In this document: one piece after another, positions 22,961 to 33,198 of the stretch
How positions within the stretch are numbered: the stretch's first letter is position 1
Layout of the letters: each line of letters begins with the position of its first letter
Assembly (NCBI GenBank): GCA_019308995.1
Contig: JAFDHD010000008.1
Span: 1-64,000 of the forward strand
Direction: 5' to 3'
Source of the DNA: Deltaproteobacteria bacterium
GTDB taxonomy: Bacteria; Desulfobacterota; Desulfarculia; Adiutricales; JAFDHD01
Length of the DNA: 64,000 nt
Notes under the pieces: model-generated
What the model was told of the DNA's origin: nothing
What the model saw: the letters and a program-made list of their open reading frames with translations, nothing else
Databases searched by the model: none
Translations under genes and position numbers: made by a program

Positions 22961-23127
22961 TTTGGCTTGGCCATATCATTATTTGCCACCGTTTACGAGA
23001 ATAACTGCTTGAATTTATAGGACTTATTCTTATGATAGACGAGTGGCATGCTTTGTGCTGCCATAAAGTTATGGCTGATAAGAGAGTATGGCTGCTCAAT
23101 CCCTGTCTAAACAAATCGAGGTCAAAG

Positions 23128-23550
23128 ATGGATTTATTCAGCAAATTAAGAGAGATGAAAATCTTACTCATAGACGACGATGAGTGGATCAGAGATTCTC
23201 TGTGTTTATTTTTTGAAGGCGAGGGGTGCCATTTGCTCGCTTTTGAGACAGCCGAGGAGGCCATGGAAGAGCTTAAGAGGCAGCCATATGACATTATCAT
23301 CACCGATTACAAATTACCAGGTATTGACGGCTTGGAGTTTCTGAAGCGGATTCAAAAGCCCTTCCCCGATGCCATGAAGATACTCATTTCCGCTTACGGG
23401 AGTGATGAGGTTGTAGCTGAAGCGATTAAGAATGGAATCCATGATTTCATAGAAAAACCCTTTAAAACCGAGACTATTGAAAAAGCCCTGATCAGGATCA
23501 TCGAAAAAAGGGAGTCGAAACTAGCCCCAAAAAAACGATGGCTGAAGTAA
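23128..23550 (+). CDS. stand-alone response regulator receiver
   Basis: About 140 residues from the ATG at 23128 (gagg upstream); 23155 is another possible start. A single receiver domain: acidic pocket DDD near 16-18, phospho-acceptor D60 in IIITDYKLPGIDG, Ser/Thr position in ILISAYG, and Lys in IEKPFK. After the domain only about 15 basic residues follow, so there is no output domain. It could act by binding a partner, as CheY or Spo0F do. It begins the eight-gene kinase/receiver/transporter locus and is followed after 72 bp by a kinase. Confidence 0.88.
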   Translation: MDLFSKLREMKILLIDDDEWIRDSLCLFFEGEGCHLLAFETAEEAMEELKRQPYDIIITDYKLPGIDGLEFLKRIQKPFPDAMKILISAYGSDEVVAEAIKNGIHDFIEKPFKTETIEKALIRIIEKRESKLAPKKRWLK

Positions 23551-23622
23551 TTGAATGGCAGATCACAAGGGAGATGCTCCAGGTGGAAAGAATGCCGCGA
23601 GGCAGCCGGAGACGAATTTAAA

Positions 23623-25356
23623 ATGACTACTGTTCCGGAAGGAGACAAGAAAATACCCATTGAAAAGGAATATTTCCAGAGGCTTCGCCTGCGCCTTAAA
23701 TTTGGACTCCTGTTGGCGCTGATGGTCCCGCTGGCGGCTCTCTCGTTTTATTTTCATTTTCAGTTCAACTCCACCTTGAAAGAGAGCGGGAAGGTCCCTC
23801 TGGCGGCCCTGGCCGAGAGCCAAGGCAATACGATTGACCTGTTTTTTCAGGAAAGGCTGGTCAACATATTCAGCCTTTTCCACAGTCAGGAGTTTAACCT
23901 TTCCCCTTCCAAAGAGGACATGATTCATTATCTGGCGAATTTAAGGCAGGCAAGCGATGCCTTTATTGACGTTGGATTCTTCGATGAACGAGGGACGCAG
24001 ATCGGTTACGCCGGTCCTTTTTCTGATCTTCATGGCAAGGATTACAGCGGCGAGAAGTGGCTCACAACGCTGATGAAAGAAGAGCGAAATTACTTCATCA
24101 GTGACATTTACGAGGGCTTTAGAAATAAACTCCATTTTACCATCGCGGTCAAACAGTTGATTGACAGGCAGCCGTATGTGATGCGGGCCACGCTTGATCC
24201 GGAGAAGTTTTACCTTTTCCTGCGCACTATCAGTCGAGGCAAGGGAGTTGACTCGGCTCTAATCAACAAGGAGGGCTTCTACCAGGTTGTCAATCCGGAG
24301 CGGGGTGAGCTTTTTGGCAAAAGCGAGTATATGCCTGCCAGAACCGAAGGGTCAGGCATTGAGGAGGTCAGGGTCAATGGTGATTCTGTGCTGATTGCCT
24401 ACGCCTGGCTCAAGGAAACACCTTGGGTGCTGGTGGTTAGCCAGCCCTTCAGCCTGGCCTACGCCAAGATGTACCAGACGAGGAGGATTATGATCGCGAG
24501 CACCGCCTTGATAGTGCTTATCATCGCGGGTGCTATCTGGTTTACGGTTGACCGTCTCGTCAAACGCGCCGAGGCCACGTCAGAGGCCAGGGAGGAGTTG
24601 AAGTCACAATTATACCACGCCTCAAAATTGGCTTCAGTCGGTGAACTGGCCGCCGGGGTGGCCCACGAAATTAACAACCCTCTGGCAATAATCTTTGCCG
24701 AAAGCGGACTCATAAGAGACATGCTGGATCCTGAGATCGAATTAGATGGGAGTCCGGGAAACATGAGGCAGGGGCTTGCCCACATTGATGCAGCGGTCTT
24801 CCGGGCAAAAGGAATTACCCAAAAATTGTTGAATGTCTCGCGCAAAACCACACCGCGGCTGGTTCCTTGTGATATCAACGAAATCATTGAAGACGTGGTA
24901 AGCGGACTCAAGGAGAAGGAGCTTCAGGTACATAATATTAAATTGATTCGCGATTATGACTATGACCTGCCAGAGATATCCCTCGATCCTGATCAAATCA
25001 GCCAGGTATTCTTGAACCTTATCAATAATGCGGGTGACGCCATCAAGGGGCCGGGGACGATTACCATTTCTACGCGCCGCGACAATAGATCCCTTCGTGT
25101 CACGATCAAGGATACCGGAGTGGGGATGACCTCGGAACAGATGAGTAAGATATTTCTGCCTTTTTATACTACCAAGGATGTGGGAAAGGGAACAGGGCTC
25201 GGCTTGAGCATCAGCTTGAGTGTCGTGGAATCATTAGGAGGCCGCATCGAAGTTCAGAGTATGTCTGATGCCGGGAGTTCGTTCACAGTTGTTTTGCCAA
25301 TTAATGAACCAGGAGAATCTGACTATGGTGGACGCGAAAACAGTAAAGGGAAATAA
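23623..25356 (+). CDS. Cache-domain sensor histidine kinase (DctB-like layout)
   Basis: About 577 residues from the ATG at 23623 (weak ribosome binding site). Membrane span 1 is at 26-46 and span 2 at 288-308; between them lies a periplasmic double-Cache domain of about 240 residues with the YAGPFSDLHGKDY segment typical of carboxylate and amino-acid sensors. The HisKA domain has H348 in AAGVAHEINNPLAI. The HATPase domain has NLINNAGDA, DTGVGM and GKGTGLGLS. No HAMP domain is evident between span 2 and HisKA. The stop lies 32 bp inside the next gene, so the two are translationally coupled: the natural partner is the receiver-transporter fusion. Confidence 0.93.
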   Translation: MTTVPEGDKKIPIEKEYFQRLRLRLKFGLLLALMVPLAALSFYFHFQFNSTLKESGKVPLAALAESQGNTIDLFFQERLVNIFSLFHSQEFNLSPSKEDMIHYLANLRQASDAFIDVGFFDERGTQIGYAGPFSDLHGKDYSGEKWLTTLMKEERNYFISDIYEGFRNKLHFTIAVKQLIDRQPYVMRATLDPEKFYLFLRTISRGKGVDSALINKEGFYQVVNPERGELFGKSEYMPARTEGSGIEEVRVNGDSVLIAYAWLKETPWVLVVSQPFSLAYAKMYQTRRIMIASTALIVLIIAGAIWFTVDRLVKRAEATSEAREELKSQLYHASKLASVGELAAGVAHEINNPLAIIFAESGLIRDMLDPEIELDGSPGNMRQGLAHIDAAVFRAKGITQKLLNVSRKTTPRLVPCDINEIIEDVVSGLKEKELQVHNIKLIRDYDYDLPEISLDPDQISQVFLNLINNAGDAIKGPGTITISTRRDNRSLRVTIKDTGVGMTSEQMSKIFLPFYTTKDVGKGTGLGLSISLSVVESLGGRIEVQSMSDAGSSFTVVLPINEPGESDYGGRENSKGK

Positions 25357-27391
25357 ACCATCGCCCAAAATTTTGCTGGTGGATGACGAGGACCAATTTC
25401 GCACGGCTTTGTCACAGCAACTATCTGTAAGGGGATATCAAGTTCTGGACGTGGACCGTGGGGATGAAGCTATCAAGGTCGTGCGCCATGAAAAGCCCGA
25501 AGTGGTGATCCTGGATCAGAAGATGCCGGGCATGGACGGAATCCAGACCTTAAAGGAGGTAAAGAAAGTAAGCCCTGAGGTTCAGGTGATCATGCTTACG
25601 GGCCATGGGAGTACTGATGTCGCCAGGGCCACTGGCAAGCATGATGTCTACTACTACCTGGAAAAGCCTTGTAGCCTGGATGAACTTATCAGGGTCATCG
25701 AGTCGGCGAGGCAGGAACGAGTGTATGCCATGGCCCGTCATGAAATTCCCGAGGTTCAAAAAACGAGCCTCAAGCAATGGCTTCTCGGCGCGCAGAATGC
25801 GCGTCCTGGATTGATCATGCTCGGTATTATTCTCTTCACGGCCATCGTGCTCATGCCTCCCCCGACCAAGCTGGTTTCATTTTTAAGCATGGAAAAGACC
25901 GGGAAGCTGGGTGAAAGCATCACCGGATACTCTGAGTACCGCAAGATGAACCTGGGACAGACTATCGCGGAATATTACAGTCAAAAGGCCGGGTGGTTTC
26001 AAAAAGTAAAAAACCCAGATGCTACGGTGACAAAAGTTCCTTTAGGCCCGGCCCAGGTGGCTTTTCGCGCCAAAGTCATGGTGGGAGTTTTGGTTGTGGC
26101 TGCTCTCTTTTGGGCTACTGGCGCCATCCCTATTGGTTTTACGGCTCTCCTGGTTGGAGTGCTCATGTATTTCTTCGGCATTTTTCCACCAAGCATGGTC
26201 GCCAAGGCCTACGCCAAGGATGCGGTCATTTTTATCTTTGGCGTGCTGGCCCTTTCCGCTGCCATAAGCAAAACCGGACTTGACCGACGAATCGCAATCC
26301 TGCTCTTGGGCACCAGCACCTCTATTAAAAAGTTCTTGTTCATCTTCGCTCCCCTTCTGGCCATGACGGCTTCCTTTCTTTCGGAGCACGCTCTGGTTGC
26401 TTTCCTGGCTCCGATTCTGATGCTGGTTTATATGGGAGCCATCAAGTCGGCAGGCTTAAAAAAGGACCGGAGCCTGGTGGTGATGATGCTGCTTCTCCTT
26501 ACCTATGCCGCCAATCTCGGAGGACCGGGATCTCCGGCTGCCGGCGGACGCAACGCCGTTATGCTCGGTATCCTCAACGATTACGGCCTGGCGCCCAGTT
26601 TCGGCCGGTGGGTCATGATGGGGCTCCCCTTTGTGCCGGTCATGGCGCTCGTTATCGCTGGTTACTTCTTCTTTGCATTCCGGAAAAAGATCAAGACTCA
26701 AGGAGTTAATATTGCGGCCGAGGTGAGGAGAGAGGCGGAAAAAATAGGCAAGATGACCTCAGACGAATATAAGGCCGCCGGAGTTCTGGTGCTTCTGATC
26801 ATTTTGTGGTCCACCTTATCCAGCCGGTTCGGGATGGGCGGCCCGGTCATGTTATGTCTCTTCCTCCTTAACATCCTGGGCATTCTTCGCTGGAAAGACA
26901 TTAACAGTATTCACCTGGATATTGTGGCGCTTTACGCCGCGGCCAGCGCCATGGGTTACGGCCTGGCAACCACCGGCGCCGCCCTCTGGCTTGCGGACAG
27001 CTTTATTTCCATGCTTCCAGAGACCTTGAAAAGCGGAACCGGTCTTCTCATGTCCACGAGCCTTATTACCGGTATCATGACTAATTTCATGAGCGATGGA
27101 GCCACCGTGGCCGCGGTCGGCCCTATCACCGTTCCCATGGCCACCATCTCCGGAACATCGCCTCTCATGGTCGGGCTGGCCACCGCCTTTGCTTCTTCCT
27201 TTGCTCACATATTGATCATCGGCACACCCAACAATGCTATTGTTTACAGCATGGCTCGCGATCCGGAAACAGGCGAGCAGCTGGTCACGATGAAGGACTT
27301 CTTTATCCATGGAACGGCGATTTTAATATTGAGCTTCGCCGTATTGTGGATCTGGGTATTCCTCGGATACTGGCGCTGGATACCTATTTAA
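25325..27391 (+). CDS. receiver domain fused to SLC13-type membrane transporter
   Basis: 689 residues from the ATG at 25325 (aggag upstream). Residues 1-125 are a complete receiver: acidic pocket D20-D21-E22, phospho-acceptor D64 in VVILDQKMPGMDG, T92 in MLTGHG and K114 in LEKPC. A linker of about 35 residues leads to a first span near 162-178 and a loop of about 70 residues. The SLC13/DASS-like core (about 248-689) follows, with duplicated re-entrant regions (AANLGGPGSP near 396 and GTPNN near 633). The two SNT substrate motifs are replaced by SEH (353-355) and SDG (590-592). The reading frame is continuous. Phosphorylation by the coupled kinase could gate transport directly. Substrate unknown; an organic or inorganic anion is the family default. 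Confidence 0.92.
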   Translation: MVDAKTVKGNKPSPKILLVDDEDQFRTALSQQLSVRGYQVLDVDRGDEAIKVVRHEKPEVVILDQKMPGMDGIQTLKEVKKVSPEVQVIMLTGHGSTDVARATGKHDVYYYLEKPCSLDELIRVIESARQERVYAMARHEIPEVQKTSLKQWLLGAQNARPGLIMLGIILFTAIVLMPPPTKLVSFLSMEKTGKLGESITGYSEYRKMNLGQTIAEYYSQKAGWFQKVKNPDATVTKVPLGPAQVAFRAKVMVGVLVVAALFWATGAIPIGFTALLVGVLMYFFGIFPPSMVAKAYAKDAVIFIFGVLALSAAISKTGLDRRIAILLLGTSTSIKKFLFIFAPLLAMTASFLSEHALVAFLAPILMLVYMGAIKSAGLKKDRSLVVMMLLLLTYAANLGGPGSPAAGGRNAVMLGILNDYGLAPSFGRWVMMGLPFVPVMALVIAGYFFFAFRKKIKTQGVNIAAEVRREAEKIGKMTSDEYKAAGVLVLLIILWSTLSSRFGMGGPVMLCLFLLNILGILRWKDINSIHLDIVALYAAASAMGYGLATTGAALWLADSFISMLPETLKSGTGLLMSTSLITGIMTNFMSDGATVAAVGPITVPMATISGTSPLMVGLATAFASSFAHILIIGTPNNAIVYSMARDPETGEQLVTMKDFFIHGTAILILSFAVLWIWVFLGYWRWIPI

Positions 27392-27426
27392 GCCGCTAAG
27401 AGGAATTGTAAACAAGAGGAAGAAAC

Positions 27427-27915
27427 ATGGAAAACAAAAAAATCAATCTTGTCATCGTGGACGATGAAGAGCAATTCCTGACCACAATCCGCAGGAGGCT
27501 GGAGATCAGAGGGTTCAATGTTATTGCGGTTGACCGAGGCGAAAAGGCCCTGGAGGCCGCGAGGGATTATCCCCTGGATATCGTTCTGCTGGACCTGAAG
27601 ATGCCCGGTCTGAGCGGCGAGCAGACCCTGAAAGCTTTGAAGCAGGAGCACCAGGATTTGGAGGTAGTTATCCTGACCGGTTACGCCTCTATAGATTCGG
27701 AGCTGGAATGTCGCCGCATGGGCGCATATGCCTATATAAGAAAACCTTGCGAATGGGAGCAGCTTCTGGCGGCCCTTACCGGAGCATATAAAAAGAAGGT
27801 CATGAACAAGGCTCAAATAAAAGAGCATGAAATGGACGAATTGCTCAAAAAAGTTGACTCCAATTCACCTCTAAGCGTCCTGAATAAACTCAAGGAGTTG
27901 GACAAAGGAAGCTGA
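27427..27915 (+). CDS. stand-alone response regulator receiver with short C-terminal tail
   Basis: 162 residues. The receiver domain fills residues 1-125: acidic pocket VDDEE at 11-15, phospho-acceptor D56 in IVLLDLKMPGLSG, Thr in ILTGYAS and Lys in IRKPCEW. A charged helical tail (about 126-162) ends in SPLSVLNKLKELDKGS. No DNA-binding or enzymatic domain. It begins 35 bp after the receiver-transporter gene and 11 bp before the second kinase, so it is clearly in the same operon. It may be an adaptor or phosphate sink between the kinases and the transporters. Confidence 0.92.
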   Translation: MENKKINLVIVDDEEQFLTTIRRRLEIRGFNVIAVDRGEKALEAARDYPLDIVLLDLKMPGLSGEQTLKALKQEHQDLEVVILTGYASIDSELECRRMGAYAYIRKPCEWEQLLAALTGAYKKKVMNKAQIKEHEMDELLKKVDSNSPLSVLNKLKELDKGS

Positions 27916-27926
27916 AGGGAAAAGTC

Positions 27927-29624
27927 GTGGGAAACAATCGCTTTAAAAAAATTCGGCGCATGATCCTGGGCCGTGTTCTGTTGGCTCCCTTTATCATTCT
28001 CCTGCTGGTGTGCGGAACTCTGGTGTACTATTTCGCCGGTTATTCCCGAGATCAGGTCGAAACGGAACTGGTGCGCATAGCCGCGGACCACCGGCGAATG
28101 ATAGATCAATTTTTCGGCGAACGGGTTTCTGATCTGCAGTATATCTCCATTAGCTATACTTTTGATGAGCTGCGCCATCAGAGTAGCCTGGCCTCTGTCT
28201 TCTATAACCTCCAGGCGGGCTCAAAGGCATTTTTCGATCTTGGTCTCTTTGACGAAAAAGGAAACCACGTCGCTTATGTCGGTCCCTATGATCTGGCGGG
28301 CAAAAATTATGCGCAGACCGAATGGTTCAAAGAGGTTCGGGATAAAGGGCTGTATATCTCCGATGAATTTCTCGGATATCGCAATATTCCTCACTTCGTG
28401 ATCTCGATTCGCCGGAACGAAGGTAACCGAAGCTGGTATCTTCGAGCGACCATAGACACCTTTTCCTTCAACGACCTGGTGGAAAGCATTCGCATGGGAA
28501 AGACCGGCGAGGCTTACCTTGTCAACCGGCAAGGCGTACTTCAAACCAAGCGTCGGTCAGGGGGAAAATTGATGGAGCCGGATGCGGATTACGGCTTTTA
28601 CGAGATTGATGATGAAAGAATAACCTCCTTTTCCGCAGGCAGTTACTTGAATCAGCGCTATCTTTATGTTGTGGAGATCCTCAAGCACACCAATTGGCTT
28701 CTGGTGGTGCGGCAGGAAATGGGCGAGGCCTATGCCCCTTTGATGAGGGCGGTGCTGATTGCCATCTTTATGATAGTCGGCGGGGGAGCGGTGGTGTTCA
28801 TCATGGCCTATATCTTGGCTTCGAGTCAGGCAAACCAACTGATGCTTGCCGATATTGAAAAACGGGAGATGAAAACCCAGCTGATCATCGCCGGAAAGAT
28901 GGCTGAAGTTGGAGAGATGAGCGCCGGGCTGGCCCACGAAATTAATAATCCCCTTCAGGTGATGAAATCGGAGCAGACCCTGATTGAAGATATCCTCTCC
29001 GACATTGAGAAGAACGAAGTGATTCACGATCAGGAAAACCTTCGCCTCATCAAGGATTCGGTCAAACAGTTCGGTATCCAGATTGAACGCTGCGGTCAGA
29101 TCACGGCAGGGCTTCTTCGGTTCGCGCGGAGAACCGAAGGCTCAAAGGAATCTGTGCAAATACAAAAATTTTTACCCGAAGTGGTAAGCATGATCGAGCA
29201 GAGAGCTCGCGTGGAAAACATACGCATCGTTCAGGAGTTCGATCCCGACCTTCCTTCCATAACGGGCGATCCCAACCAGCTGCAGCAGGTTTTCCTTAAT
29301 CTTTTGAATAATGCCATGCACGCACTCAAAGGCAAGGATCACGGAGAAATACGTATCCGGGCCTTTCGAGAAAATACAAGCATTACCATATCGGTCGCCG
29401 ACGACGGATGCGGAATACCCCCCGAGGACATGGAAAAATTATTCATTCCTTTCTTCACCACCAAGCCGGTGGGTCAAGGTACAGGGTTGGGACTGAGCGC
29501 CATCTACGGAATCATAAAGGGACTTGGAGGCGAAATAACCGTATCCAGCGAGGTTGACGCCGGGACTGTGTTCACCATCCATCTGCCGTTGGATGCGCCT
29601 GGCGAAGAGGAAAATATTGGCTGA
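27927..29624 (+). CDS. Cache-domain sensor histidine kinase
   Basis: 565 residues from a GTG with gaaggga upstream. Span 1 is at about 16-37 and span 2 at 273-297. The periplasmic Cache domain between them includes YVGPYDLAGKNY and SDEFLGYRNIPHF, matching the layout of the first kinase of the locus. HisKA has H337 in SAGLAHEINNPLQV. HATPase has NLLNNAMHAL, DDGCGIP and GQGTGLGLS. The two kinases are paralogues and presumably sense related ligands. No HAMP domain is visible. It is followed after 25 bp by another receiver gene. Confidence 0.93.
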   Translation: MGNNRFKKIRRMILGRVLLAPFIILLLVCGTLVYYFAGYSRDQVETELVRIAADHRRMIDQFFGERVSDLQYISISYTFDELRHQSSLASVFYNLQAGSKAFFDLGLFDEKGNHVAYVGPYDLAGKNYAQTEWFKEVRDKGLYISDEFLGYRNIPHFVISIRRNEGNRSWYLRATIDTFSFNDLVESIRMGKTGEAYLVNRQGVLQTKRRSGGKLMEPDADYGFYEIDDERITSFSAGSYLNQRYLYVVEILKHTNWLLVVRQEMGEAYAPLMRAVLIAIFMIVGGGAVVFIMAYILASSQANQLMLADIEKREMKTQLIIAGKMAEVGEMSAGLAHEINNPLQVMKSEQTLIEDILSDIEKNEVIHDQENLRLIKDSVKQFGIQIERCGQITAGLLRFARRTEGSKESVQIQKFLPEVVSMIEQRARVENIRIVQEFDPDLPSITGDPNQLQQVFLNLLNNAMHALKGKDHGEIRIRAFRENTSITISVADDGCGIPPEDMEKLFIPFFTTKPVGQGTGLGLSAIYGIIKGLGGEITVSSEVDAGTVFTIHLPLDAPGEEENIG

Positions 29625-29649
29625 AATTATAGTAAGGAGGACGGACAAC

Positions 29650-30096
29650 ATGGCGAACATACAGTTGTTGTTAGTTGACGATGAAGAAAGGTTTTTAGAA
29701 ACTACCCAAAGACTCCTCAAAAAGAGAGATATCACTACCTATACCGCCACCAATGGCCTGGATGCCCTGAAACTCCTGGACGACCACCGGCTTGACGTGG
29801 CCATTCTCGATGTAAAAATGCCAGGGCTTGACGGCGTGGAGGTGCTGCGCCGGATGAAGAAAAAGCACGCCCTGGTGGAAGTCATCATGCTTACCGGCCA
29901 CGCCTCGGTTGAATCAGCGGTGGAAGGGCTGAAGCTGGGGGCTTTCGATTATCTGGTGAAGCCGTGTGATATTTCAGCCCTGGTGGAAAAGGTGAAGGAA
30001 GCATATGCCAAAAAACAGGGCATGGAAGAAAAGATCCGTAAGGCGAAGATAGACAAAATTATCAAGCATCCCCTGTCAGTGTTTGAAAAAGATTAG
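29650..30096 (+). CDS. stand-alone response regulator receiver
   Basis: About 148 residues from the ATG at 29650, which has aaggagga upstream. The receiver domain has the acidic pocket VDDEE, phospho-acceptor D54 in VAILDVKMPGLDG, Thr in MLTGHAS and Lys in LVKPCDI. A basic tail follows, ending HPLSVFEKD; the PLSV string is shared with the tail of the receiver at 27.4 kb. No output domain. It is 31 bp upstream of the second SLC13-type transporter and may act on it in trans, as the fused receiver would act in cis. Confidence 0.92.
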   Translation: MANIQLLLVDDEERFLETTQRLLKKRDITTYTATNGLDALKLLDDHRLDVAILDVKMPGLDGVEVLRRMKKKHALVEVIMLTGHASVESAVEGLKLGAFDYLVKPCDISALVEKVKEAYAKKQGMEEKIRKAKIDKIIKHPLSVFEKD

Positions 30097-30127
30097 CCTG
30101 CCTCTAAAATTCGGAAAAGGAAAGAAA

Positions 30128-31975
30128 ATGAGCGGTGATACCAAGAAAGCGACCGGATACGATAAGTACATCAACTGGAAGACTTTCATTATTCCTTTAA
30201 CGCTCCTGATCCTCATGCTGATCATTCCAACACCAAAAAGCATGCTTGATGTTGGCGTGGAATACTCGATGGGAACCAAATACGTTCAAGAATTCTTTTC
30301 CAAAGAGCTCTTTAACAAGCCCACTCATGAGTTGTCCCAGTGGCAGATACAGATGATCCGAATGATGGAAACCAGCATCAATAAATCATCATATAGTCAC
30401 GGAACCTTTCAGGCCCGGGATAAAAAGTGGTGCGAGAAAAATAAGATTGCCTGTACAGAGGAGCATCTGGAGCAGGTCAGGGAGTTTGCGCAAAAGATTC
30501 CCCCTGATGAGTTTAAAACGCTAATGCTAAAAGGACAAACGCTCCGGTTAAGTGAGCTGAGTTACGATCAGCTGACGGATCAGGAAAAAAAGAAGGCTAC
30601 CCGAGCTGGATTTCATGTCAAAGTGGCTGTGGGAATCGTGTTGTTTGTCGTACTCTGCTTCCTGACCGAAGCCATGCCGCTTCCCATGGTTGCTTTTTGT
30701 ATCGGTATTATTGCCTTGATGACCGGAATCGTAGACAGGCATAACGTGGCCGCACTCTACTGGTCTGACGCCACCTGGTTCATCATGGGCAGCCTCATGT
30801 TTGCGACGGCCTTTGTCAAGACGGGGCTGGACAGGCGCCTGGCCATGATGATGTTTGGCAGGTTAAAAAACCCAGACATCAAACGGATCACCCTTATCAT
30901 CATCCTGATTATTGCCCCGCTGACTATGTTCATGTCCGACCACGCCCTGGCGGCTATGTTCCTGCCAATCGGCATTTTACTGTATTCGACTTCTACCGCC
31001 GTCTCAGGCCGGGAAGACCCGGAACTGAGCAAGATGCTCATGATTACGATCGCCATGGCCTGCAATCTCGGCGGCTCCCTGGCCCCTTCGGGTGCGGCTC
31101 GAAACATCATCATGATGGGTTATGCAGAGGATATGTTCGGTATCTCCATCGGCTTCGGGCAATGGATGCTTTATTGCGTCCCATACCTCCTCTTTACCGT
31201 GCCGCTGACCTGGTTTATGATCAACTGGCGTTTCAAACCGCACATAACGAACCTGGGCGACTCGATTAATATCGTCAAGGAAGAGATAGTCAAGGACGGC
31301 GGCGGATGGACCCGGGGACAGATTGTTTCCCTGATCATTTTTTTCATTATGCTCTTTTGCTGGATTACGGAAAAGAACCTCATCCTGAATCTGACCGGCA
31401 TACGCTTTGGAATTGGCGTTTTTGCCGTTATGGGGGCCATCGCCTATATCTTTGCTGGTGTTGTAAACTGGCGTGATTACCAGTCTCGCGTGGATTGGGG
31501 CGTGGTTTGGCTTTACGCCGGCGCTATCATCTTTGGTCGTATTCTGGTTATGACAGGCGGGGCTTACTGGCTCGCCCGTTCCATCCTCGAGCTTACGGTT
31601 CCCCTGGGGCTCGGTCAAGGCATCGGCCTCCTCCTGAGCGGAAATGCCATCACGGCCTTTCTGACACAGCTAATGGCTGATGGTCCGGCCTGTGCGGCCG
31701 TGGGGCCTGTGACTCTGGCCATGGCAGGTATCGCCCACCCCGGTTCTGCCATGATTCCATTTGTGGCCATGAGCACAGCCATGGCTTCGTCCCTGGCTTA
31801 CTGCCTGGTCATTGGCACTCCGCCAAACGCCATTGTTTACGCCAGTGGCTATTTAGAGCCAAAGGATTTCCTAAGGGTCGGCGTTATTCTCCTGGTTACC
31901 AACTTAGGTGTGATGATGCTGCTGGCCTCGACATACTGGAGGTGGCTGGGCTGGTCCAACCTGGCGTCTTTCTAA
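30128..31975 (+). CDS. SLC13-type anion transporter (no fused receiver)
   Basis: About 615 residues from the ATG at 30128 (aaaggaaag upstream). It starts with one span (about 18-34), then a hydrophilic loop of about 130 residues, then the SLC13-like core with two inverted repeats. The repeat segments read CNLGGSLAPSG and VIGTPPNAIVY. The expected SNT motifs are SDH (in MFMSDHALAAM) and ADG (in QLMADGPACAA). It is a paralogue of the receiver-fused transporter upstream: same order of span, loop and core, and the same replacements, but no receiver. The extra-large loop between spans 1 and 2 is probably periplasmic. Confidence 0.9.
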   Translation: MSGDTKKATGYDKYINWKTFIIPLTLLILMLIIPTPKSMLDVGVEYSMGTKYVQEFFSKELFNKPTHELSQWQIQMIRMMETSINKSSYSHGTFQARDKKWCEKNKIACTEEHLEQVREFAQKIPPDEFKTLMLKGQTLRLSELSYDQLTDQEKKKATRAGFHVKVAVGIVLFVVLCFLTEAMPLPMVAFCIGIIALMTGIVDRHNVAALYWSDATWFIMGSLMFATAFVKTGLDRRLAMMMFGRLKNPDIKRITLIIILIIAPLTMFMSDHALAAMFLPIGILLYSTSTAVSGREDPELSKMLMITIAMACNLGGSLAPSGAARNIIMMGYAEDMFGISIGFGQWMLYCVPYLLFTVPLTWFMINWRFKPHITNLGDSINIVKEEIVKDGGGWTRGQIVSLIIFFIMLFCWITEKNLILNLTGIRFGIGVFAVMGAIAYIFAGVVNWRDYQSRVDWGVVWLYAGAIIFGRILVMTGGAYWLARSILELTVPLGLGQGIGLLLSGNAITAFLTQLMADGPACAAVGPVTLAMAGIAHPGSAMIPFVAMSTAMASSLAYCLVIGTPPNAIVYASGYLEPKDFLRVGVILLVTNLGVMMLLASTYWRWLGWSNLASF

Positions 31976-32286
31976 AAGACGGAAACGCGCATGAGATAAA
32001 GATTAACGATAGGTTTAGATGCGATGTCGACGCCAAGAAAAGTCCGGCTGCGGATAAAGTACAAAACCATAAGGTTGTCTCAGTCTTATTTCTTTCACAC
32101 TGTCTCGGAGCCGATATTAAATCCTGGGCAGTTCTATAAAGAACAGGCCGTCCATGACAATTGTACTGCCGCTCCTTATTGGCTATGGTTAATGTAACTT
32201 ATGCAGATTCATTTCAAATGATAACCACATCAGATAGAGGCCGTTAGGCCTAGACTTCTTTGAAACCCAAAAGGGGGATTCTTGAA
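31976..32286. other. intergenic gap inside the transporter locus
   Basis: About 310 bp with no credible gene. No strong hairpin terminator is visible. The receiver-CBS gene downstream might have its own promoter here, but none is clear. Confidence 0.5.
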
Positions 32287-33198
32287 ATGGATAAAAAAAT
32301 AAAAGTGCTGATGGTAGATGACGAAGAGCAGTTTCGTGTCACAACTAAAAAGATCCTCGAAAGAAGGGGATTTGAGACGATCCTGGCAGGAAGCGGTGAA
32401 GAAGCCATCGAAAAAATCAAAGAGGGCCCCGACGTGATTATTTTGGATATCAAAATGCCGGGTATGGACGGCCTGGAGGCATTACAGAAAATTAGCGCTC
32501 TCGAAGAGGCCATCCCCGTTATCATGCTCACTGGACATGGTTCTGAGCCATCTGCCAAGCAGGCCTTGCAAGAAGGCGCCTTTGATTATCTGGCCAAGCC
32601 TTGTGATATAAATCTTCTTGCTTCCAAAATCGTGGACGCCTTTCAGCACAGGAAGGAGGAAATCCCGGCTGAAGAAAAACTGGTAAGAGATGTTATGATT
32701 CCCACAGAGGAGTATACCACTCTGACCATGCAAAACACTGTTCAAGATGCCATTGAGAGTTTGAAAGAGTCATTTACAGCCAAAATATCAACCAGTCGCA
32801 TCATGGAAACCGGTCACCGTTCGGTCTTGGTGATTGACCAAAAAGGGAATATGCAGGGCATCCTGACTATTGTGGACCTTTTGCAAGGGATAATGCCTCC
32901 TTACCTTTTCGCTCCCAAGCCTTCCATGGCTGACACCATTCAGTATTCTCCGATGTTTTGGAAGGGCATGTTTACTGGGAATATTCAGGATCTGAGCAAG
33001 AGAAGCCTGCAAGAAATCATGTCACCGGCGCCCCCTACCATTGCCGACGATAAAAACCTCATGGAAGCTGCCTACACTCTGGTGAAAAATCAAGCCCGAA
33101 GATTGGCCGTCATGCGCGAAGGTAAATTGGTGGGAGTGGTTCGAGAGCAGGATTTATTTTTTGAAATGGAGAGGATTTTAGGGAAAACGATTAAATAA
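32287..33198 (+). CDS. receiver-CBS protein
   Basis: About 303 residues from the ATG at 32287, preceded by aaaaggggg. The receiver (1-120) has acidic pocket DDEE at 11-14, phospho-acceptor D54 in VIILDIKMPGMDG, Thr in MLTGHGS and Lys in LAKPCDI. A CBS pair follows (about 137-300): VRDVMIPTEEYTTLTMQNTVQDAI opens the first CBS motif, SVLVIDQKGNMQGILTIVDLL closes it, then LQEIMSPAPPTIADDKNLMEAA and RRLAVMREGKLVGVVREQDLFFEM form the second. CBS pairs bind adenine nucleotides and often gate channels and transporters. This could tie the phosphorelay to cellular energy state. It ends the locus; a convergent Hdr operon begins 116 bp further. Confidence 0.92.
   Translation: MDKKIKVLMVDDEEQFRVTTKKILERRGFETILAGSGEEAIEKIKEGPDVIILDIKMPGMDGLEALQKISALEEAIPVIMLTGHGSEPSAKQALQEGAFDYLAKPCDINLLASKIVDAFQHRKEEIPAEEKLVRDVMIPTEEYTTLTMQNTVQDAIESLKESFTAKISTSRIMETGHRSVLVIDQKGNMQGILTIVDLLQGIMPPYLFAPKPSMADTIQYSPMFWKGMFTGNIQDLSKRSLQEIMSPAPPTIADDKNLMEAAYTLVKNQARRLAVMREGKLVGVVREQDLFFEMERILGKTIK

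Follow-up and report, generated by a model that had tools for sequence, protein, structure and literature searches.

Here we describe a protein in which a complete receiver domain, a linker of about 30 residues and a full DASS/SLC13 transporter are joined in one chain. It is encoded in the window, a stretch of 64,000 nucleotides from contig JAFDHD010000008.1 of a Deltaproteobacteria bacterium, by a single open frame that runs on the forward strand from the ATG at 25325 to the stop at 27391 (688 aa), with the sequence AGGAG 9 nt ahead of the ATG. With slightly better than even confidence, we read this protein, REC-SLC13, as a transporter, probably of sulfate, with an activity that depends on phosphorylation of its built-in N-terminal receiver by HKa, the kinase encoded immediately upstream. 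The fusion gene belongs to a cluster of eight genes oriented in one direction (23032-33198), in the order RECup, HKa, REC-SLC13, RECmid, HKb, REC, SLC_b, and REC-CBS. The features of the locus are as follows.

23032..23550, + strand: RECup, single-domain receiver (Pfam Response_reg, 1.3e-26)
23551..25356, + strand: HKa, sensor kinase with the layout dCache_1 - HisKA - HATPase_c (Pfam; conserved H, N, and G boxes)
25325..27391, + strand: REC-SLC13 fusion protein, 688 aa (Pfam, alignment, trees, predicted model)
25370..25699, + strand: receiver domain of the fusion, residues 16-125 (Pfam Response_reg, E 5.5e-27; D64 codon at 25514-25516)
25709..25804, + strand: linker, residues 129-160 (conserved in the alignment; 140-158 mostly of low confidence in the predicted model)
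25805..25852, + strand: TM1, residues 161-176 (predicted model), followed by a loop, residues 178-241, that is probably periplasmic
26048..27382, + strand: DASS/SLC13 core, residues 242-686 (Pfam Na_sulph_symp, PF00939, E 1.7e-34)
27427..27915, + strand: RECmid, single-domain receiver (Pfam), weakly placed as sister of the fused receiver (SH-aLRT 68)
27927..29624, + strand: HKb, second dCache_1 sensor kinase (Pfam)
29650..30096, + strand: single-domain receiver beside the unfused transporter (Pfam)
30128..31975, + strand: SLC_b, unfused DASS/SLC13 paralogue (TIGR00785 over cut-off; 35% identity to the fused core)
32260..33198, + strand: REC-CBS protein (Pfam), kept beside SLC_b in relatives

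The earlier note on this DNA had placed a receiver and an SLC13 core in one uninterrupted frame and had assigned the receiver residues D20-D21-E22, D64, T92, and K114. The open frame and the Pfam domains bear out the former, and the residues are correctly placed: among 31 fusions, none of the six shows a substitution, with gaps in one fragment only. A degenerate receiver is ruled out by this invariance, and with a mean pairwise identity of 71%, close to the 75% of the transporter core, the receiver does not appear to be decaying; the corresponding values are 60% for the linker and 46% for the TM1-TM2 loop. Within the linker, R138, E140, I141, W152, G155, and R160 are invariant across 26 proteins. 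Independent translation of the transporter half, starting inside the frame, was considered and rejected, as the linker contains no conserved methionine (M136 and M165 vary among relatives).

The transporter half also matches the Pfam family CitMHS (residues 261-606), and the protein scores 162 bits against TIGR00785, under the cut-off of 198.6; it was assigned to DASS/SLC13 by fold and sequence family, not as a canonical Na+/dicarboxylate carrier. By Pfam, the fusion protein lacks SLC5, STAC, and kinase domains and so falls outside the CbrA type, and no second gene matching both the receiver and the SLC13 halves was found elsewhere in its own genome.

An AlphaFold2 model was built from 49 sequences (mean pLDDT 83, pTM 0.70). 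The receiver part of the model adopts the (beta-alpha)5 fold of CheY and Spo0F, with Spo0F 3q15 matched by Foldseek at a TMt of 0.91 over 114 columns. The transporter part matches NaCT 8uvb (TMt 0.81 over 451 columns), VcINDY (0.78), and NaS1 (0.70-0.75), so the SLC13 fold is predicted to be intact. Because linker residues 140-158 mostly have a pLDDT below 50, we claim no contact between the receiver and the transporter. In the order of the model helices, the first hairpin, residues 334-375, comes after four crossings counted from TM1. The first hairpin of VcINDY opens to the cytoplasm, and by this correspondence the receiver would be cytoplasmic and the 178-241 loop periplasmic.

The kinase gene HKa (23551-25356) overlaps the fusion frame by exactly 32 bp, as the earlier note had stated. 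The context needs correcting in that the eight-gene cluster includes a second kinase and, in addition, an SLC13 paralogue that is unfused and has a distinct receiver gene beside it. In HKa, the dCache_1 and HATPase_c domains score over their cut-offs and HisKA just under (26.6 vs 26.9 bits), and in an alignment of 27 HKa proteins the H, N, and G boxes, which contain the phospho-accepting histidine and the ATP-binding residues, are invariant or nearly so. In nearly all loci, HKa is the gene immediately 5' of the fusion, and it is the likely phospho-donor to the fused receiver, to judge from gene order and conserved residues. In several relatives (L032, L036, L037, L039, L055, L057, and L058), a receiver is joined to the N-terminus of HKa in a protein of about 690 aa. 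This arrangement, which in the window corresponds to two separate genes, suggests that RECup feeds into HKa.

SLC_b and its receiver are encoded by two genes and form the unfused counterpart of the fusion within the same locus. The SLC_b frame opens at the TTG at 30083, and the ATG at 30128 is the likelier start, in which case there is no overlap with the preceding receiver gene. The REC-CBS protein accompanies the unfused SLC_b in many loci, and other SLC13 relatives have CBS-only partners (for example, L082:4712-5338 and L049:4760-5314).

The fusion recurs in related bacteria. A scan of GTDB r220 with one genome per species yielded 51 loci, 30 of which, not counting that of the window, encode a receiver and an SLC13 transporter in one frame, each half being more than 50% identical; contig ends cut three of the 30 short (L053, L055, and L058). 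At least 25 genomes are represented, most of them metagenome-assembled genomes of Desulfobacterota, and the labels are mainly Desulfobacteraceae, Desulfobacula, Desulfosarcina, Desulfotignum, Desulfatitalea or Deltaproteobacteria. Full-length identity to the window fusion is 60-85% in 25 other aligned proteins, with 85% in L030, a relative of the same genus. The check proposed in the earlier note, that the fusion be sought in related genomes next to a kinase, thus gave a positive result, with 30 further loci and HKa upstream in nearly all, and a restriction of the fusion to this genome, which that note had listed as a refutation, is contradicted by the at least 25 further genomes.

In whole-genome searches, only three of the 395 sampled genomes of the phylum, including that of the window, had a full-length fusion, which counts against our reading; ten full fusions were found in one family of 36 genomes; all motifs are kept in the seven of this family that were read. 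The large open-frame values of four further matches (G238, G098, G472, and G469) reflect separate receiver and transporter genes and do not represent fusions. Four loci carry labels of Planctomycetota (L031 and L052, both Pirellulaceae BS150m-G36, and L042, Pirellulales) or Nealsonbacteria (L033). Their clusters fall inside the Desulfobacterota clade, and the genome of L031 measures 11.7 Mb and carries a dsrA gene; probably, then, the bins are mixed or carry wrong labels.

In the transporter tree, 30 fused proteins occupy one side of a branch with an SH-aLRT of 99, and the fused receivers likewise form one group in the receiver tree (99), where RECmid is placed next to them with weak support (68) and the receivers of unfused loci fall outside (82), both being quick trees built without bootstrap. 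As the fused proteins form one clade in both trees, a single fusion event, since retained, is indicated. The unfused relatives, 37-50% identical to the fused core, also sit among kinases, receivers or CBS proteins, and in four of these loci (L124, L135, L142, and L143) the transporter frame is preceded, at a distance of about 20-40 bp, by the end of a separate receiver gene. The functional pairing is therefore probably older than the fusion, and the simplest history suggested by these gene arrangements is one fusion of a receiver gene with the transporter gene next to it. A third, distant group of SLC13 proteins (22-28% identity; L046:12253-17386, L049:8296-9735, and L143:9982-11565) has single-domain receivers and a REC-HK hybrid as neighbours, so that the pairing of receivers with SLC13 transporters may extend beyond the fused clade.

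The substrate was approached through the binding-site motifs and the genomic context. In a HMMER alignment to solved SLC13 proteins, both positions of the Ser-Asn-Thr motif are occupied by other residues, SEH (353-355) and SDG (590-592); the canonical hairpin-tip motifs are absent, and SEH and SDG are invariant in the fused clade, which points to a binding site that is conserved yet non-canonical. The corresponding motifs of SLC_b are SDH and ADG. Since the altered motifs are invariant, a degenerate transporter is unsupported. With both motifs replaced, neither sulfate nor dicarboxylate transport can be read from the sequence, and the substrate and the coupling ion are inferences. DsrA scored over the cut-off in all 20 genome entries tested, which amount to 18 distinct genomes of carriers or close relatives because two pairs have identical coordinates. 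The base rate among phylum genomes without a strong fusion match is 37 of 76, and the comparison of 18/18 with 37/76 gives a Fisher p of 2e-5, uncorrected for phylogenetic kinship. A DASS-TCS-CBS cluster was described in 2025 as a sulfate-uptake cluster in Desulfobacteraceae (PMC11887813). The substrate of the fusion is probably sulfate.

We propose that HKa detects an external ligand through its periplasmic Cache domain and would then pass phosphate to D64 of the fused receiver, which the conserved linker before TM1 would hold at the cytoplasmic face. The phosphorylated receiver may alter the conformation or the dimer state of the transporter and hence raise or lower its rate. Pfam detected no DNA-binding domain in any of the eight cluster genes (window 23032-33198), and because the core cluster has no DNA-binding regulator and the receiver is tied to the transporter, direct phospho-control of flux is the simplest reading. 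In this best explanation, the cytoplasmic receiver, HKa as the donor, sulfate, and a change of uptake on phosphorylation are the parts that we infer. The more general proposition, that the protein is a response regulator with a secondary transporter as its output domain, through whose phosphorylation the kinase has direct control of solute flux, seems to us evenly balanced between right and wrong.

Several other explanations were weighed. Phosphorylation-driven dimerisation is a common mode of action of receivers and SLC13 proteins are dimers, which would fit a receiver that acts on how much transporter is present, or on its membrane insertion, oligomerisation or degradation, and leaves its catalytic rate alone; the data lean neither way, and we consider this quite unlikely. 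It is slightly less likely still that the fused receiver, as a sink or branch point, drains phosphate from HKa and RECmid, with the transporter unaffected and the fusion merely a means of membrane placement. The position of RECmid directly 3' of the fusion and its likely, weakly supported sister relationship to the fused receiver would agree with such a role, but the retention of a single fusion across many genera, together with the conserved linker, suggests that physical coupling matters. Information could also flow in reverse, with the transporter acting as a co-sensor that docks on HKa by its receiver and adjusts kinase activity according to substrate occupancy or flux; HKa would then signal via the other receivers encoded there (RECup, RECmid, and REC-CBS). 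The co-occurrence of several receivers and two kinases in the cluster, the altered SLC13 motifs, which leave room for a sensor-like role, and the coupling of transporter and kinase on the sensor side known from CbrA (PMC7096432) all speak for this possibility. However, a receiver used only for docking need not keep every catalytic residue invariant, and HKa already owns a Cache sensor, so we regard it as rather unlikely.

Hardly any credence can be given to an artefact of assembly or gene calling. The source genomes are mostly metagenome-assembled, but full-length proteins of 60-85% identity recur in more than 20 independent assemblies and form one clade, which rules out assembly, gene-calling, chance, and sequencing-error artefacts alike.

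Direct control of the transporter, if real, would not preclude control of its gene. Sigma-54 response regulators of the NtrC type and their kinases are encoded within a few kb upstream of the cluster in L034, L046, L048, L054, and L060, and L055 has such a regulator and kinase nearby on the opposite strand. These two-component pairs are candidates for transcriptional control, and their presence near several related loci suggests that transcription of the cluster is probably regulated too. In the window, four one-mismatch matches to a sigma-54 promoter were found against 4.5 expected, none of them near the cluster.

Two-component systems are usually interpreted as switching genes, and the fused clade suggests a direct route from kinase to transporter. 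Should phosphorylation prove to gate transport, response regulators would have a new class of output, and sulfate reducers a rapid post-translational means of adjusting the uptake of their respiratory electron acceptor, with which energy metabolism begins in these cells. With one transporter fused to a receiver and another beside a separate one, the cluster offers a natural comparison pair.

The cluster type itself is already known (PMC11887813); what appears to be new, within the open-licence literature, is the combination of a known domain, the receiver, with a known carrier family. The published cluster of Desulfosarcina variabilis and other Desulfobacteraceae resembles that of the window in its DASS transporters, Cache kinases, response regulators, and CBS proteins. 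In the portion of that source available, the response regulators are assumed to act on promoters and treated as WalR-type, the CBS proteins are taken as a second level of control, and no receiver-transporter fusion is mentioned; we offer a different reading of this cluster type.

Among DASS transporters of sulfate reducers, group Cii includes HRM2_38300 and TOL2_19410 and proteins of up to 691 aa (PMC5840216), which is the length of the Desulfobacula fusion (L032). Some group Cii proteins have a proline at alignment position 260, possibly within the GGPGSP stretch of the window fusion, and the locus-tag number of TOL2_19410 is close to that of TOL2_19470, a group Ci DASS. PMC5840216 does not mention a receiver domain in group Cii. 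TOL2_19410 is probably a fusion of this kind. On HRM2_38300 that paper is of two minds, with high expression at low sulfate in section 24 and the opposite in section 16. The earlier note knew of no characterised receiver-SLC13 protein, and our search agrees insofar as no description of this architecture was found in the open-licence literature, a scope outside which the main response-regulator censuses lie, so that an earlier tabulated mention is possible.

VcINDY, NaCT, and NaS1 share the fold of the fusion core over about 450 columns, but have no receiver and carry Ser-Asn motifs where the fusion has SEH and SDG. CbrA and the SLC5-STAC kinases, like the fusion, combine a transporter and two-component domains in one chain. 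In CbrA, however, the transporter is on the kinase side (the sensor side, in the words of the earlier note), and transport is not significantly affected by the kinase domain (PMC7096432). A precedent is LacS of Streptococcus thermophilus, a secondary transporter regulated through phosphorylation of a cytoplasmic phospho-acceptor domain fused to it (PMC10703360). LacS carries sugar and bears its PTS IIA domain, the target of phosphorylation by HPr, at the C-terminus, whereas the window protein is an SLC13 transporter with an N-terminal two-component receiver; by analogy, our best reading is that the fusion would work like LacS via a different phospho-route.
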